Source: Paracholeplasma manati (GTDB taxonomy: Bacteria; Bacillota_I; Bacilli_A; Acholeplasmatales; UBA5453). Taken from it: a stretch of DNA of 64,000 nucleotides. The notes beneath the pieces were generated by a model, which was not told the DNA's origin, searched no databases, and was given only the letters and a program-made list of their open reading frames with translations. The position numbers and the translations under genes were made by a program. Positions within the stretch are counted from its first letter, which is position 1. Each line of letters starts with the position of its first letter. Shown here in pieces: positions 3,949-35,331 of the stretch. The DNA lies in contig NZ_JAOVQM010000008.1 in the NCBI RefSeq assembly GCF_025742995.1, positions 1 through 64,000 on the forward strand, given 5' to 3'.

Positions 3949-5544
3949 GTATGTTTTTATGATCATTTCGGCTTGTCTGATGCCATCGATGGCGGAGGAC
4001 ATGATACCACCTGCGTAACCAGCACCTTCACCCATCGGGTATAACCCTTGAATATTCGATTGTCCCGTATCGTCTCGATTGATGCGAATTGGTGAAGAAC
4101 TTCGCGATTCAACCCCAGTCAAGACAGCGTCATCCATCGCGAAACCTTTAATCTTTCGATCGAAATCTAATAAGGCTTCATGGATGGTTTGATGGATATA
4201 TTCCGGGAAGAATTGTTTAAAGTTAACAAAGGTATAACCAGGTTCATAAGTTGGTTTAACAGAGCCGACTTTTTGAGTGGTTCTATTATTCAAAAAGTCA
4301 CTTACAAGTTGTAAAGGGGCTTTATATGACCCACCGGCCAGTTGGAATGCTTTTTGTTCAAATTCTCTTTGAAAATACATACCCGCGAGTGGATGATCCG
4401 AGTTGAAATCCTCCGGCATTACATTGACCAATAAAGCCGCGTTCGCATTTTGTCCGTCACGTCTCGATTCGCTCATCCCGTTGGTTACGACCCCATTGGG
4501 TTCAGAAGCTGAACACATCACATACCCACCAGGACACATACAAAACGTATACGCACCACGGCCATTGTTACTCTTATAACTGAGTTTATAATCCGCAGCC
4601 CCTAAGTTGGGCATGGTATGAAATTTACCATATTGTGATTCGTTGATGAGGACTTGAGGGTGTTCAATACGAACGCCTACAGAGAAAGCTTTTTGGGTAA
4701 TATGAATGCCTTGTTCATACAACAGTGTGAATGTATCACGAGCACTGTGTCCAATGCCCATCAAACATACATCTGTTTCGATACGATTGTTATTATTGAC
4801 GATGACTGCGGATAAAACACCTTCATTAAACTCTAGTTTTGTTACCTTTGAATGGAATCTAACTTCACCACCAAGTAGCGTGATTTCTTGTCTAATCGAG
4901 CGGATGATGCCTTTCAATATATCGGTACCCACATGTGGTTTGTTGATGTATAAAATCGCGGGGTCTGCCCCATGCTTAACCAAGGCTTCCAAAACATAGC
5001 GACTTCTTAAATCGTTCACGAGTGTGGTGAGTTTACCATCTGAAAATGTACCTGCACCACCTTCACCAAATAAGATGGTTGCGTCTTCATGGAATTCACC
5101 AGTGGTTTTAAAATGGTCCCAAAGTTTGGTACGTTCATCGACATCTAACCCACGCTCTAATACAATGGGTCTGTAGCCTCTTCTCGCGAGTAACAATGCA
5201 CTGAATATACCTGATGGTCCAAATCCAATGATGACTGGTCGATGTTTGAGTGTTTTATCACCCATTTCTACTTCATGATATGCACTGTCTGGAGAAATCA
5301 TGAGATTAGGGTATTTTTTATCGACCAAGTTTTTCTCGTATGGCAATTCGATATCGATAGAATACACAAAGATTACATGGTCTTTCTTTCTCGCATCAAT
5401 GGCTTTTTTAAAGATGGAAAAAGACTGAACATCGTTCTTTTTGATGCGATACTTATCATAGATATAATTCAGGATAGCTGCTTTTTCTAATTCTAATGTT
5501 ATTGCATCCTTCAATTCAATTTTAATTTCTGTAATTCGAATCAT
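3934..5544 (-). CDS. FAD-dependent dehydrogenase of the COG2509 type
   Basis: A 536-residue flavoprotein. An N-terminal domain of about 100 residues with a small alpha/beta fold precedes the Rossmann dinucleotide-binding motif IIGFGPSG (105-112) and the long FAD domain. This layout, with the GGYVMCSASEP segment and the C-terminal GEGAGYAGGIMSSA motif, is typical of COG2509 proteins, whose substrate is unknown. I choose the ATG at 5544: it has an AGAGGT ribosome-binding site and starts 8 bp after the previous stop, whereas a longer reading frame to 5622 would run into the upstream gene. It is the second gene of a two-gene flavoprotein operon. Confidence 0.88.
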   Translation of the reverse strand: MIRITEIKIELKDAITLELEKAAILNYIYDKYRIKKNDVQSFSIFKKAIDARKKDHVIFVYSIDIELPYEKNLVDKKYPNLMISPDSAYHEVEMGDKTLKHRPVIIGFGPSGIFSALLLARRGYRPIVLERGLDVDERTKLWDHFKTTGEFHEDATILFGEGGAGTFSDGKLTTLVNDLRSRYVLEALVKHGADPAILYINKPHVGTDILKGIIRSIRQEITLLGGEVRFHSKVTKLEFNEGVLSAVIVNNNNRIETDVCLMGIGHSARDTFTLLYEQGIHITQKAFSVGVRIEHPQVLINESQYGKFHTMPNLGAADYKLSYKSNNGRGAYTFCMCPGGYVMCSASEPNGVVTNGMSESRRDGQNANAALLVNVMPEDFNSDHPLAGMYFQREFEQKAFQLAGGSYKAPLQLVSDFLNNRTTQKVGSVKPTYEPGYTFVNFKQFFPEYIHQTIHEALLDFDRKIKGFAMDDAVLTGVESRSSSPIRINRDDTGQSNIQGLYPMGEGAGYAGGIMSSAIDGIRQAEMIIKTYQKSH

Positions 5545-5552
5545 GAGTACCT

Positions 5553-6758
5553 CTATTGGGTTGCATGAAGGCCTGCAACATAACCTGAGCTCCAAGCCCA
5601 TTGAAGATTGTATCCGCCGCATAGACCATCGATATCGATGATTTCGCCAGCAAAGTATAAGCCTTTTGATTTTTTAGATTCTAACGTTTTTGGTTGGATA
5701 TCGTTCACATTGACACCACCTGCGGTCACTTGGGCTTCTTCATAGCCTTTCGATCCGGTGACTTTAAACTTCATCGATGTGAGCAATTGTGCCAATCGTT
5801 TGATCTGCATTGGATTGAGTTGTTCGATGGTGACATCTGCCATTAAACGCGCTTCTTTTAAAACGACAGACACCAGTTTTCGATTGATTAATCCAAGTAA
5901 TGCCAATTCAACCGGCAGATTCTTTAAATCCATCAAACGCTCTTCGATATCGGTTGGATTAAGTTCAGAGACCAATTTCACATCCACATAGATGGTTTGA
6001 TGGTCTTGTAAAAGTGCATTCGCTTTTCTGGATAATTGTAATATGGTTGGTCCACTGATGCCGTATTTGGTAAATAGTATGTCGCCAAACTCGGTTTGAA
6101 TGATTTGATTTTGATGTATTAAGGATACAAAGCCTGGAAATTTAACCCCATCCAAAACTTTAAGATACGGTGAGTCTAGTTTTAGTTTCACCAAAGCTGG
6201 GAAGAGTGGTGTAATTTCATGACCCAAATCCTTCGCGATTTGATAACCTGTCCCATCACTGCCGGATTGCGGGAGTGCAAGTCCACCCGTAGCCACAATC
6301 AATCGGTCACAATGATAAGTCTCGCCTTGTTGGTCATATAAGACGAAGCCTTGGGTTTCTTTGTGGGCTGATAAAATGACTTTTTCATAAATCACTTCAA
6401 TACCCAAGCGTTTGATTTCATAGATCAGTACATCGGTGATGCTGGATGCTTGTTCAGATAATGGATAGGTTTTTCCTAAGTCTTCAATCTTTGGTGTAAT
6501 ACCTAAAGACTTGAAAAACAAGAGTGTTTCGCTGGGGCTAAACGAGTCGAAAACACTTTTAACAAAGGCTGGATTATTATAGTGAATTGGTAGCGCATCG
6601 ACATTGGTGAAATTACAACGACCATTGCCGGTTGCGAGAATTTTCTTACCTAGTCTTGCATTTCGTTCTATGATGGTGACATCTGCACCATGACGTTTCG
6701 CAATGATGGCAGCTACCAGTCCACTGGCACCACCACCGACGACGATGATTTTTTTCAT
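5553..6758 (-). CDS. HI0933-like (YhiN/BaiN family) flavoprotein
   Basis: A 401-residue NAD(P)/FAD-dependent oxidoreductase of the HI0933 family. The dinucleotide-binding motif VVGGGASG is at the N-terminus (about 6-13), followed by the family signature GKKILATGNGRCNFTN and the C-terminal GEIIDIDGLCGGYNLQWAW motif, which contacts FAD. The biochemical role is poorly defined; one relative (BaiN) reduces bile-acid intermediates. I start at the ATG at 6758, preceded by GAAGGGG, because the in-frame TTG at 6776 lies within that ribosome-binding site. It is the first gene of the operon with the COG2509 protein. Confidence 0.9.
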   Translation of the reverse strand: MKKIIVVGGGASGLVAAIIAKRHGADVTIIERNARLGKKILATGNGRCNFTNVDALPIHYNNPAFVKSVFDSFSPSETLLFFKSLGITPKIEDLGKTYPLSEQASSITDVLIYEIKRLGIEVIYEKVILSAHKETQGFVLYDQQGETYHCDRLIVATGGLALPQSGSDGTGYQIAKDLGHEITPLFPALVKLKLDSPYLKVLDGVKFPGFVSLIHQNQIIQTEFGDILFTKYGISGPTILQLSRKANALLQDHQTIYVDVKLVSELNPTDIEERLMDLKNLPVELALLGLINRKLVSVVLKEARLMADVTIEQLNPMQIKRLAQLLTSMKFKVTGSKGYEEAQVTAGGVNVNDIQPKTLESKKSKGLYFAGEIIDIDGLCGGYNLQWAWSSGYVAGLHATQ

Positions 6759-27832: not shown

Positions 27833-28141
27833 TTATTTTTTAGCGTACTTTTCAACGAGTCCAGCTTGAATGACTTTTTCTTTGCATTCAGCTTCAGACA
27901 TGACATTGCGTAATCCGATGACCACTTTCCCCGCTTTCGTCGCATGATCAAACATGCTTAGAAAGTTCAGTGGACAGAAAACCAAGTCATATGAAGTTGC
28001 AGCGCTTTTCCCTTCAGAAATTGAACAGTGATGAATGTTGTAGACAGGGATACCAAGTTGCTTCAACACTTTTTCTACCGTTAATTTCATCAACAGGGAC
28101 GTTCCTGCACCATTGGCACACGAGACTAAAACTTTTAACAT
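27833..28141 (-). CDS. ulaB: Ascorbate-type PTS IIB component
   Basis: A 102-residue IIB of the lactose/ascorbate fold. The phosphocysteine Cys8 lies in the P-loop-like VSCANGAGTSL. It receives phosphate from the IIA protein encoded two genes upstream and passes it to the sugar carried by the IIC protein. It lies 30 bp after ulaA. Length and motif match SgaB/UlaB. Confidence 0.93.
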   Translation of the reverse strand: MLKVLVSCANGAGTSLLMKLTVEKVLKQLGIPVYNIHHCSISEGKSAATSYDLVFCPLNFLSMFDHATKAGKVVIGLRNVMSEAECKEKVIQAGLVEKYAKK

Positions 28142-28171
28142 AACAATTCTCCTTCTTTCGTTTTGGGTTTA

Positions 28172-29650
28172 TTAAGCTTGTGCTTTATTTTGTTTGTATT
28201 GTTCGTAATCGTCAGTAACTAAGAAGTAGTTCTTCTTGTCTGCACGATATTGAAGTTGTGGAATGAGTACGAGGATTGCGATGATGATTGCAACACCAGC
28301 GTAGCTTAAGAACTTCATAAGTGCTGTGAATACTGGCCATACAACTGCCCAGTCCCACATACCTAGGTATCCACCGTATGCAGCCATGCCGACCCAACCA
28401 GCGATTAAAGCAGATCCGAAGACTTGCATCAAACCAGCTAAGAATGGGAACAACATTGCAGCGCGTACGCCACCTTTATTGTTGGCGAATACAGCGATGG
28501 TTGCGTTATCGAAGAATACTGGAACGAACCCTGCGATAACCAATACTGGGCTCTTAAGTAAGATCAATGAACCGATAGCCAAGAATTGACCAAGGGCACC
28601 GAATAAGAAACCTAGTGTTACAGCATTTGGAGAACCGAAACCATAAGAAACGGCGCAGTCTACACCTGGAACAGCCCCTGGTAATAGTCTTTGTGAAATA
28701 CCTCTGAAGGATGCAGAAAGTTCAGTAACGAAGGTTCTAACACCTAATTGAAGGATCGCTAGATATACTGCGAAGTTTAATGATGTGGTTAAGATGTAGA
28801 AGAAGAATGATTTACTTGCTGTTAAGAATCCAGCTTCAACCAAATAATCTTTACCTAAAATTAATAGGATTGTACCGAAGAATAATGTCATCAAGATTGA
28901 AGTTGCAACGATGTTTTCGTTGAAAATGGATAAGAATCCAGGGAACTTCATATCTTCTAACTTCTTAGATGGTCCACGTTTGCCACTATTCATCTTTTCA
29001 GCTAACCAAGAGAATAATGCTAAACCGAACATTTGTTGATGGGCGATAGAGAAACCAGCGCCATCGGTTAAATCTTGAGTAATACGAACGGTTAAGTTAG
29101 TACCAACTGCCCAATATAAACCTAAGATTAGACCCATGATTAAAAGAATCCATGTATCGTTTAATGCTGGGAATGCGAATAAGATTAACCAGAAGGCTGT
29201 AGAAGCTTGTTGAACTTGTACGTGACCTGTGGTGAAAATAGCTCTCATCTTAGTCCATCTCTTTAATGCCACCAATAAGATGTTAAAAATGAAGGCGATG
29301 AGCAATAACAACATGACTGATGCAAATGCCCTACCGAATACTTCTTCTACCCCTGCGGTTACCGCATTTTGTCCGAAGTAAGGGTCAATAACCATCGCGT
29401 CTAGATTGAAGCGACCTTTTAAACCTACTAAAATCGGTCTAAAGTTACCAACGAGTCCGCCTGAACCAACGATTAAAATTAAATAACCGACGGTTGCTTT
29501 TACGAAACCTGAAAGAACTTCATACCATGGTCTTCTGAGCAAGACGTAACCGACCACAACGATCAACCCGATAAAGTACGCAGGTTGTGTTAAGATGTTC
29601 GCTGCAAAGAATTCCCAAATCTTTTGCAAAAACTCTAAAACTTGATCCAT
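28172..29650 (-). CDS. ulaA: Ascorbate-type PTS IIC permease
   Basis: A 492-residue membrane protein of the UlaA/SgaT superfamily with about 11-12 hydrophobic segments. Family segments such as LIVGSGGLVGNFRP, PYFGQNAVTAGVEEVFGRAF, GAVPGVDCAVSYGFGSPNA and GFVPVFFDNATIAVFAN are intact. It carries the sugar, probably L-ascorbate, across the membrane during phosphorylation. It is flanked by ulaC and ulaB in the same operon. Confidence 0.95.
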   Translation of the reverse strand: MDQVLEFLQKIWEFFAANILTQPAYFIGLIVVVGYVLLRRPWYEVLSGFVKATVGYLILIVGSGGLVGNFRPILVGLKGRFNLDAMVIDPYFGQNAVTAGVEEVFGRAFASVMLLLLIAFIFNILLVALKRWTKMRAIFTTGHVQVQQASTAFWLILFAFPALNDTWILLIMGLILGLYWAVGTNLTVRITQDLTDGAGFSIAHQQMFGLALFSWLAEKMNSGKRGPSKKLEDMKFPGFLSIFNENIVATSILMTLFFGTILLILGKDYLVEAGFLTASKSFFFYILTTSLNFAVYLAILQLGVRTFVTELSASFRGISQRLLPGAVPGVDCAVSYGFGSPNAVTLGFLFGALGQFLAIGSLILLKSPVLVIAGFVPVFFDNATIAVFANNKGGVRAAMLFPFLAGLMQVFGSALIAGWVGMAAYGGYLGMWDWAVVWPVFTALMKFLSYAGVAIIIAILVLIPQLQYRADKKNYFLVTDDYEQYKQNKAQA

Positions 29651-29666
29651 ATCTTTTCTCCTTTTT

Positions 29667-30119
29667 CTATTTCATCACAGTGAGGGCTTGTAAATCCTCG
29701 ACTGATTTGACCTGTAGTAATGCTTCTAGCAACGCTTCATCCGTAAGCATTTCAAACAAGGCTTGCATGTTTTCCACATGCTCATCTTTGTTCGCAGCTG
29801 CTAGGGTGAAAAATACCTTTGCGTCTTTGGATGGGTCATTCGGATCGAATGAAACTGGCTTTTCTAGTTTCATAAATCCGATGGCTGTTCCATTTACACC
29901 TTCTGCATTCTCGGTGGAATGCGGCATCGCATAGTTTTCGAACAATACGATGTAAGGACCATATTTATTGACACACTCGATGATGAGTTCTGCATAACGT
30001 TTATCTACTGTACCATCCGCTTCTAACGGTTTGCAGCTCATTCGGATGGCTTCCTGCCAGGAATCTACCGAATCGAGGAATAAATAGTGGTTTTTTTCGA
30101 TGATTTTCTTTAATAACAT
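29667..30119 (-). CDS. ulaC: Ascorbate-type PTS IIA component
   Basis: A 150-residue IIA of the mannitol/fructose fold. The phosphorylated His67 is in NYAMPHSTE. It links HPr to UlaB. The gene lies 8 bp after ulaG and 16 bp before ulaA, so expression is shared. Confidence 0.93.
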   Translation of the reverse strand: MLLKKIIEKNHYLFLDSVDSWQEAIRMSCKPLEADGTVDKRYAELIIECVNKYGPYIVLFENYAMPHSTENAEGVNGTAIGFMKLEKPVSFDPNDPSKDAKVFFTLAAANKDEHVENMQALFEMLTDEALLEALLQVKSVEDLQALTVMK

Positions 30120-30127
30120 GCGCGTTT

Positions 30128-31192
30128 CTATAATAAGGACTTGAATGGGATGTTTTGTTCGTTTTCGAACGCATCCTCAAATCCACGTCTGTGATGGTAC
30201 TCACGGTCATTTTGATCGGTTGGGAAGGTGAACTTACCACCAACTTGCCAAATGAATGGTTTGAACTTGTATTTCAAGACATCTTTTTTCATGTCATATA
30301 CTGCTAAGATTTCTTTTGGATCTGCCATGAAGTTTGACCAAATATCATAATGGAGTGGAATCAATACTTTGGATTGTAATGCTTCTGCCATTCTGAGTAA
30401 GTCCACTGAAGTTTGTTTATCGGCGATACCCACTGGGTTTTCACCAAACGCACCGAAGCATACGTCGATTTTATGTTTTTTACCATGGTCTGCAAAACTA
30501 ATCGAGTAGTGTGAGTCAGCCGCGTCGTAGATGTTACCACCTGTGGTTTTAAACAAATAGTTAACAGCTTTTTCATCCATATTTGGAATGGTACCGGCTA
30601 GTGGTACATAACCACCATCTGTTGTTACTAAACATGTTCTATCAAATGAATCTAACGCTACGATTTCTACGTCTTTAACCTTGATGACATCCCCTGGTTT
30701 AACTGTGATACAACGTTCAGCTGGTACACCCCATTTAATCCATAAATCCACGGATGATTTAGGCCCGATGAACGGGATTGGTTCTTTCACATTTTGAAGC
30801 ACTGCTGCTGCAAAATGGATATCCATATGATCTGCGTGGTAGTGAGTTGCAACCACAGCGTCTAATTGTCTTACTTCAAATGGATCTAATACGTGTGGTT
30901 GTACACGTAGGTTAGGTTGTTGTAAGCGTCCGCCTGACATGTTTGCCATTTGATGTCCTGGTAACATGTTAGCTGTACGAGTTGTGCGCTTACCATTACC
31001 AAACCATAAATCCACTGCGATGTTCGTATTGTGTTCAGTTTTTATCCAGAAGCCCATACAACCTATCCACCAGAGTGCGACTGTATTTGGTTTGACCACT
31101 TCATCCTCTATTTGTTCGTTCAAATAAGTACCCCATTCAGGGAAAGTTGCCCTTAGCCAAGTGTCTTTGGTGATTTCATTTACTTTAGCCAT
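30128..31192 (-). CDS. ulaG: L-ascorbate-6-phosphate lactonase
   Basis: A 354-residue metallo-beta-lactamase-fold lactonase. The metal motif HYHADH (about 117-122) is followed by family-specific segments (FGNGKRTTR near 64-72, [12 protein letters not shown] at the start of the fold, [10 protein letters not shown] near the C-terminus). It opens the lactone ring of ascorbate 6-phosphate produced by the PTS. The ATG at 31192 follows AGGAGG; the frame open to 31240 reaches back into the promoter and is rejected. It is the first gene of the ula operon. Confidence 0.95.
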
Positions 31193-31238
31193 TTTGTATT
31201 TCCTCCTGTTATTTTGATAGTCGAATGATTTCGCTTTC

Positions 31239-31267
31239 ATTATATGCGTGACCCTATTTCATTGCAA
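31239..31267 (-). promoter_or_regulatory. Promoter of the ula operon
   Basis: On the minus strand TTGCAA (31262-31267) is followed after exactly 17 bp by TATAAT (31239-31244), about 47 bp ahead of the ulaG ATG. Confidence 0.75.
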
Positions 31268-32977: not shown

Positions 32978-33003
32978 AAAAGTGTGAATCCATCACACTT
33001 TTT
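32978..33003. terminator. Bidirectional terminator
   Basis: The 10-bp stem AAAAGTGTGA/TCACACTTTT (32978-32987 with 32993-33002) lies between the convergent DeoR gene and the 99-residue orphan. Confidence 0.88.
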
Positions 33004-33292
33004 CTTTTATATAGTCATCAACGCTATTATATGACTTCGCCCCATGATACACCTGTTCAGCACGACTATGAATACCCAAATAACCAAAGGTGTTGTCTTG
33101 GTCAGAAACTGGTATCGCAATCCAACCCAGTTTTCCATCGGTAATGATCGATGGATTCATTGGGTATTTGCCTTTGGATTTCAAATAATCAAAAAGGACT
33201 TCCTTGTCTTTTAATGTGTGTAATTCTACGAATGTGAAATAAACCTTCTTTACATCTTTTTCTGGTGCATGTTCACCAAATGGAAACGGCAT
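32993..33292 (-). CDS. Orphan 99-residue protein under a SAM-type riboswitch
   Basis: A short soluble protein I cannot assign. It starts MPFPFGEHAPEKD, has an alternating alpha/beta pattern, and contains GKYPMNPSIITDGKLGW and DQDNTFGYLGIHSRAE. It has no membrane segment, signal or Cys. A strong AAGGAGGAG site precedes the ATG. The leader holds an apparent SAM-I/IV-like aptamer and an intrinsic terminator, so expression should fall when S-adenosylmethionine is abundant. A role in methionine or SAM supply, or in handling a SAM-derived compound, follows from regulation only. Confidence 0.8.
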   Translation of the reverse strand: MPFPFGEHAPEKDVKKVYFTFVELHTLKDKEVLFDYLKSKGKYPMNPSIITDGKLGWIAIPVSDQDNTFGYLGIHSRAEQVYHGAKSYNSVDDYIKEKV

Positions 33293-33323
33293 AAATTCTC
33301 CTCCTTAAGCCATAAAGAGGTAA

Positions 33324-33349
33324 AGAAAAACCCATCGAAATGATGGGTT
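33324..33349 (-). terminator. Riboswitch-controlled terminator
   Basis: On the minus strand AACCCATC/GATGGGTT (33342-33349 with 33329-33336) with loop ATTTC is followed by a T-run. Its 5' arm, extended to CCCATCAT (33340-33347), can pair instead with ATGATGGG (33365-33372), the 3' strand of the aptamer's P1, so forming the two structures is mutually exclusive. Confidence 0.85.
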
Positions 33350-33361
33350 TAAGTGCGTTTT

Positions 33362-33449
33362 AACCCCATCATCCAAGCGTTAGCACCTTGCCAAATGGTA
33401 GGTTGCTGAAGGGTCAATGAGCTTGTCTCTCGCCTTCTCTTTATGGTAG
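33362..33449 (-). ncRNA. SAM-I/IV-like riboswitch aptamer (no P4)
   Basis: Read on the minus strand the leader matches the SAM-I core: AAGAGAAGG, a P2 arm with GAG/CTC, the TTGA of the kink-turn, CCCTTCAGCAACC, a P3 hairpin (ACCTACC...GGCAAGGT) and the invariant AAGGTGCTAA. P1 is formed by ACCAT and ATGATGG. The P2 loop CAAGC can pair with GCTTG just after GCTAAC, giving the expected pseudoknot. There is no P4 helix, as in SAM-IV and SAM-I/IV variants. I name the class from sequence pattern only. Confidence 0.8.
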
Positions 33450-33453
33450 TTAT

Positions 33454-33482
33454 ATTATAATTGAATATCTTTTGTTTTACAA
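33454..33482 (-). promoter_or_regulatory. Promoter of the riboswitch-orphan unit
   Basis: On the minus strand TTGTAA (33477-33482), 17 bp, TATAAT (33454-33459), placing the start point just ahead of the aptamer. It lies directly after the glpK stop codon. Confidence 0.75.
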
Positions 33483-33485
33483 TCC

Positions 33486-35331
<1,846 letters not shown>

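Follow-up and report, generated by a model that had tools for sequence, protein, structure and literature searches.

The closest described relatives of the leader analysed here are the riboswitches of the SAM clan. In structural descriptions, a kink-turn and the pseudoknot PK-1 are features of SAM-I and a missing P4 helix is a feature of SAM-IV, which has no kink-turn; SAM-I/IV has an undivided P2 and no PK-1 (PMC6890682). Riboswitches have been called a rare feature in phages, one example being the glutamine riboswitch of phage Melnitz (PMC9004378). The leader described here lies in a Paracholeplasma contig, within the window (the whole stretch of DNA that was analysed, 64 kb), ahead of a gene for a 99-aa protein. 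Judged by its sequence, the aptamer is a P4-less SAM-I-type variant and not canonical SAM-I; it is filed as such because there is no room for P4 between PK-1 and P1.

The aptamer behind glpK and its switch

The sole Rfam match in the window is to SAM (RF00162), at 33366-33449 on the minus strand (E 8.6e-9 over 64 kb). Among the SAM-clan covariance models that a sequence-only reading of the locus had proposed to run, this one scored above its cut-off (51.0 versus 44.4 bits); SAM-I/IV (RF01725) reached 40.7 bits, under its cut-off of 41.1, and SAM-IV (RF00634) gave no match up to E 10. The features of the locus are the following.

33486..35039 (-): glpK, the upstream neighbour, an ORF outside the switch
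33477..33482 (-): -35 box TTGTAA, with a 17-nt spacer to the -10 box
33454..33459 (-): -10 box TATAAT
33364..33450 (-): P4-less SAM-I-type aptamer (RF00162 51.0 bits; covariance model R1 96.3 bits)
33443..33446 (-): P1 5' strand CCAU, containing A6 and U7 in SAM-I numbering (leader alignment, covariation)
33408..33437 (-): P2a, kink-turn and P2b
33422..33425 (-): PK-1 5' strand CAAG
33382..33407 (-): P3 with SAM-pocket bases (RF00162 match, alignment, conserved positions of PMC3764141)
33374..33377 (-): PK-1 3' strand CUUG (leader alignment)
33366..33369 (-): P1 3' strand AUGG (leader alignment)
33365..33373 (-): antiterminator 5' strand GATGATGGG, which pairs with CCCATCATT at 33347-33339
33326..33350 (-): intrinsic terminator and U tract, whose 5' arm is the antiterminator partner
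33310..33319 (-): putative lock strand CUCUUUAUGG, complementary to the aptamer at 33446-33437 (CCAUAAAGAG) and alternatively pairing with the Shine-Dalgarno sequence
33300..33306 (-): Shine-Dalgarno sequence AAGGAGG
32993..33292 (-): 99-aa protein of unknown function

The pairing of P1, P2a, PK-1 and P3 is upheld by covariation across 13 leaders, in which 97.7% of cells are paired against 30-44% when slid. P2a pairs covary between the small-gene and metN leaders, and PK-1, CAAG/CUUG in the window, becomes UAUAG/CUAUA in metN leaders, with a C-G to U-A change. Only 4 nt separate the PK-1 3' strand from the P1 3' strand, and the distance from GGUGNUA to the end of P1 is 14-16 nt in 95 leaders of the P4-less type, leaving no room for P4. 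The SAM-I-type core, kink-turn, pseudoknot and absent P4 of the sequence-only reading are thus borne out, by the RF00162 match and by PK-1. Its label of SAM-I/IV-like is not supported, given the RF01725 and RF00634 results and the SAM-I character of the kink-turn and PK-1: P2 is divided into P2a and P2b by a kink-turn, with its GA/GA bases present, and PK-1 is there as well. A non-systematic look for the P5/PK-2 of SAM-IV found the P3 loop to be short and variable and saw no conserved partner for it.

The terminator stem is formed by AAACCCATC and GATGGGTTT, and CCCATCATT is part of it unless it is paired with GATGATGGG. This arrangement recurs: a terminator is present in all 99 classified P4-less leaders, and 90 of them have an antiterminator of 6 bp or more, against 28 expected from shuffled P1. 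The near-consensus promoter and the exact terminator/antiterminator switch were found as that reading had claimed, and an OFF switch of the SAM clan acting by transcription attenuation is supported by the computed aptamer, terminator and antiterminator. The promoter (33482-33454) starts 3 nt past the glpK stop codon; across 23 leaders of the small-gene class, 4 nt separate the end of the top-scoring -10 box from the aptamer.

The adjacency of glpK is incidental, because the leader has its own promoter and lies past the glpK stop, and because two congeners (G002 and G005) carry glpK with no leader behind it; these leader-free sites and the promoter rule out glpK as the controlled gene. In G005 the leader sits elsewhere, ahead of a 96-aa gene. 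The 99-aa gene occurs in three more Paracholeplasma genomes and, as a close relative, at L008; in all of these it lies downstream of glpK with the same leader immediately before it, a point that the sequence-only reading had proposed to check, and RF00162 scores above its cut-off ahead of the three homologues first found. The window's own genome holds two further SAM matches, a metK leader with P4 and a metN leader without it, the latter with a P3 G-C pair flipped to C-G; the same flip of a conserved P3-core pair is seen in six aligned metN leaders (L003, L025, L026, L032-L034 and others). Elsewhere in the window, at 27833-31240, the translations read as genes resembling an ascorbate PTS and a UlaG-type enzyme.

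Leader classes and the strand after the terminator

A covariance model, R1, was built from 13 P4-less leaders, and leaders were classified with a covariance model. The 99 classified leaders from Acholeplasmatales comprise 40 before priA, 20 before metN or metK, 38 before other, mostly small genes of unknown function (the small-gene class) and one other. The priA leaders stand before priA alone or before a YcxB-like gene and priA. These roughly 40 P4-less leaders belong to one family of the order (L101, L104, L110 and others), some with fmt-like genes further down; our search found no paper on P4-less SAM leaders before priA.

In the small-gene class, the U tract is followed directly by CUUU(A)UGG(UA), the complement of the first bases of the aptamer (UACCAUAAAGAG). 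This element, which the earlier reading missed, lies in the window between the terminator and the Shine-Dalgarno sequence, and its helix with the aptamer 5' strand has a computed energy of -14.7 kcal/mol (p=0.005 versus shuffles). The helix covers A6, U7, G11 and A12 of the SAM pocket and should therefore exclude SAM binding. Tested against dinucleotide shuffles, the pairing is significant in 26 of 38 Acholeplasmatales leaders of the small-gene class, in 0 of 39 before priA and in 0 of 20 of the met group, and in 27 of 29 leaders from other orders and phages. The two strands also change together. CCAU/AUGG alternates with CCUAU/AUAGG, UAGG being found in the element in 14 of 16 leaders whose aptamer 5' strand is CCUAU and in 3 of 37 with CCAU (Fisher 3e-8, a value that overstates the support because the leaders are related and not independent), and L076 shows a paired exchange, A to G in the aptamer and U to C in the element.

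Pairing of the aptamer 5' strand also bears on translation. Blocking this strand lowers the predicted accessibility of the Shine-Dalgarno sequence in 22 of 23 element-bearing leaders (mean 0.44 to 0.13), and in the window from an unpaired probability of 0.38 to 0.02, in energy folding (ViennaRNA) that leaves out the kink-turn, PK-1 and ligand; this shift is confined to the small-gene class. On thermodynamics and covariation, the second element looks like a read-through lock, confined to the small-gene group and predicted to free the Shine-Dalgarno sequence. We found no description of such an extra locking helix in the papers searched.

It could be argued that the leader is an ordinary SAM-I attenuator, a common arrangement, and that the complement after the terminator is a polypyrimidine tract or conserved Shine-Dalgarno spacer that takes no part in switching. 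The U tract by itself does pair somewhat with AAAGAG, and a significant lock helix is missing in 12 of the 38 small-gene leaders of the order, that of a homologue of the 99-aa protein (L007) among them. However, a spacer of this kind would not explain why equivalent leaders before priA and the met genes do not have the complement, why it follows the aptamer through the insertion that yields CCUAU/AUAGG and through the pair exchange in L076, or why, of the 67 leaders tested that belong to neither of those two groups, 53 show significantly stronger pairing than dinucleotide shuffles. We regard the ordinary attenuator as unlikely and retain the read-through lock.

Spread of the P4-less leaders

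P4-less leaders of the type described here occur widely, both in Acholeplasmatales and in other orders of the class. R1 has matches in 96 of 160 Acholeplasmatales genomes, some of which are weaker, P4-containing metK leaders, and in 78 of 192 genera sampled across the class. A plasmid search returned one match in a 987-kb Mycoplasmopsis record and, on a Psychrobacter plasmid, an aptamer that looks broken. No single protein family goes with the leader, because the small-gene class includes many genes unrelated to the 99-aa protein: helical proteins, MoxR-type ATPases and an N-formylglutamate amidohydrolase. A family of about 105 aa (L072, L099, L162, L163, L168, L170) retains the same leader across two orders.

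Several loci are of interest in their own right. One 1.1-Mb genome (G014; L069, L133, L134, L135) has five P4-less leaders, two with CUGGC/GCCAG as PK-1. At both L169 and L171 the leader precedes a gltX-like frame that runs into apparent TldD-like sequence. A gene of about 200 aa, in one case weakly PD-(D/E)XK-like, lies upstream of the leader at L071, L078, L079 and L082, and at L078 a transposase-like ORF (4572-5738) stands between the leader and a 92-aa gene that directly trails the leader in relatives. A link to defence islands was considered and dropped: AbiE pairs (L068, L099) and a DNA methylase pair (L148) occur near some leaders, not consistently.

The pocket bases of the window aptamer are conserved in sequence, and SAM is its putative ligand. 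The missing P4, together with a top P1 pair that is A.G in place of C-G, might point to a changed ligand such as SAH or another SAM relative. This is very unlikely: by hand comparison with PMC3764141, all highly conserved SAM-I positions except U4 are kept, and metN and metK have leaders of this P4-less type. Slimmer still are the chances that the terminated RNA is a functional trans-acting sRNA and the downstream genes passengers, which would account for a near-constant RNA ahead of changing genes, the aptamer being far more conserved than what follows it, but conservation of the aptamer is strong ahead of priA and metN too, pairs of leader and gene are kept across orders and from phages to bacteria, and the lock and Shine-Dalgarno accessibility have a meaning only if the product is translated.

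The small proteins, their phage relatives and a proposed module

The reading preferred here is of a translated protein under the control of a putative SAM switch. As the sequence-only reading had it, the 99-aa protein belongs to no known family: it has no match in Pfam, NCBIfam or PHROGs, and fold and sequence searches of the PDB found nothing similar. Its AlphaFold model is a confident small alpha/beta fold (pLDDT 84.9), and among viral folds it comes closest to small, uncharacterised proteins of phages (best E 1.1e-3, probability 1.00). In another genus this leader precedes a 93-aa protein that is modelled with less confidence (68.7); its elements follow the same order, and many of its phage matches are also those of the 99-aa protein. 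Profile comparison ties together the 99-, 93-, 96- and 104-aa proteins (E 1e-3 to 8e-6, with unrelated controls at 0.07 or above), links that are weak in places (1e-3 to 1e-4). A profile search of 395 genomes (E 3.7e-5 per genome) adds a 106-aa relative from G222, encoded 3 nt downstream of metK with a P4-less SAM leader ahead of both.

A tblastn search of phages with the 99-aa protein gave no match, and the phage link therefore rests on folds and on profiles of relatives. The leader search found an 88-bit R1 match and a terminator ahead of a 98-aa gene in Ruminococcus phage NatCom_28274, and a pattern search found such leaders on 20 IMG/VR viral contigs, making 21 viral records that include near-duplicates (L200/L207, L209/L216, L205/L211). 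Judged by eye, the leader precedes a family of about 100 aa (MRTIRELIG...DDIMAL...FLGWAGHMCYH...RIDYEKYI) in 14 of the 21 and a relative of a bacterial 80-85-aa protein in one. By profile, the main phage family matches a bacterial 105-aa protein (5e-6); for the other phage protein the matches are to the 85-aa family (2e-17) and the 99-aa family (1.2e-4). Compared directly with the bacterial set, the main family gives a weaker link (1.5e-3), scoring 23.3 where 60 column shuffles reached at most 16.1. In the literature searched, with most subscription journals outside its reach, we came across no account of a SAM riboswitch in a phage.

The phage leaders have terminase, portal, holin, baseplate, DNA methyltransferase and S-adenosylmethionine synthetase genes as neighbours. 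A C5 methyltransferase gene adjoins the leader in L197, L201 and L202, and metK and two methyltransferase-like genes lie within 5 kb of the leader in L209. Both L209 (2757-8885) and L217 are viral contigs with an S-adenosylmethionine synthetase gene near a SAM riboswitch.

The aptamer, the terminator and antiterminator, the lock complementarity with its covariation, and the conservation of leader-gene pairs are computed observations; the order of events is our reconstruction. We think it probable that the leader is a SAM-I variant lacking P4 that works as an OFF switch with a read-through lock, and that its product is a protein of about 100 aa with a phage-type predicted fold. With SAM bound, P1 would form and the terminator would halt transcription. 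With no SAM, the P1 3' strand would pair with the 5' arm of the terminator and RNA polymerase would read on, exposing CUCUUUAUGG for pairing with the freed 5' strand of the aptamer. The resulting helix would bury the SAM-pocket bases, so that the aptamer could not re-form, and would draw the 5' strand away from the Shine-Dalgarno sequence, turning translation on as well. The product would be an alpha/beta protein whose predicted fold is otherwise found in small phage proteins, and this leader apparently also precedes diverged relatives of it in phages and other bacteria.

As to what the protein does, our tentative best guess is that, made when SAM is scarce, it adjusts SAM-dependent DNA modification or restriction, or SAM synthesis. 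The locus had been proposed as a new member of the SAM regulon, which was right in direction and too small in scale, given a widespread riboswitch-gene module in bacteria and phages. It is conceivable, if doubtful, that gut phages and bacteria share a SAM-sensing module, with a minimal P4-less aptamer, a three-way switch (terminator, antiterminator and a lock that opens the Shine-Dalgarno sequence) and a fast-evolving phage-type small protein made only at low SAM, in a phage-host contest over DNA methylation. The findings suggest that SAM riboswitches may serve beyond methionine metabolism, in a module carried by phages and bacteria. They would tie to SAM levels a widespread class of small phage proteins that have no known function, and so give a way of approaching it; the lock would be a simple expression-platform trick, with the aptamer 5' strand complemented a second time after the terminator.

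In the literature searched, most subscription journals again lying beyond its reach, we found no report of a P4-less SAM-I. Phage Melnitz offers a likeness in that its riboswitch is a phage-borne metabolite sensor, although both the ligand class and the gene are different. With SAM-I/IV (RF01725) the window aptamer shares the SAM-clan core and a score just below the cut-off, but it has PK-1 and a P2 split by a kink-turn. SAM-IV (RF00634) likewise has PK-1 and no P4, whereas the window aptamer has a kink-turn and no match to that model. The nearest described system is SAM-I (the S box, RF00162), with which the window switch shares P1, P2a/kink-turn/P2b, PK-1, P3, the pocket bases and the terminator/antiterminator OFF logic; in contrast to SAM-I, it lacks P4, has a predicted post-terminator helix to the aptamer 5' strand, and controls small proteins of unknown function in place of methionine genes.
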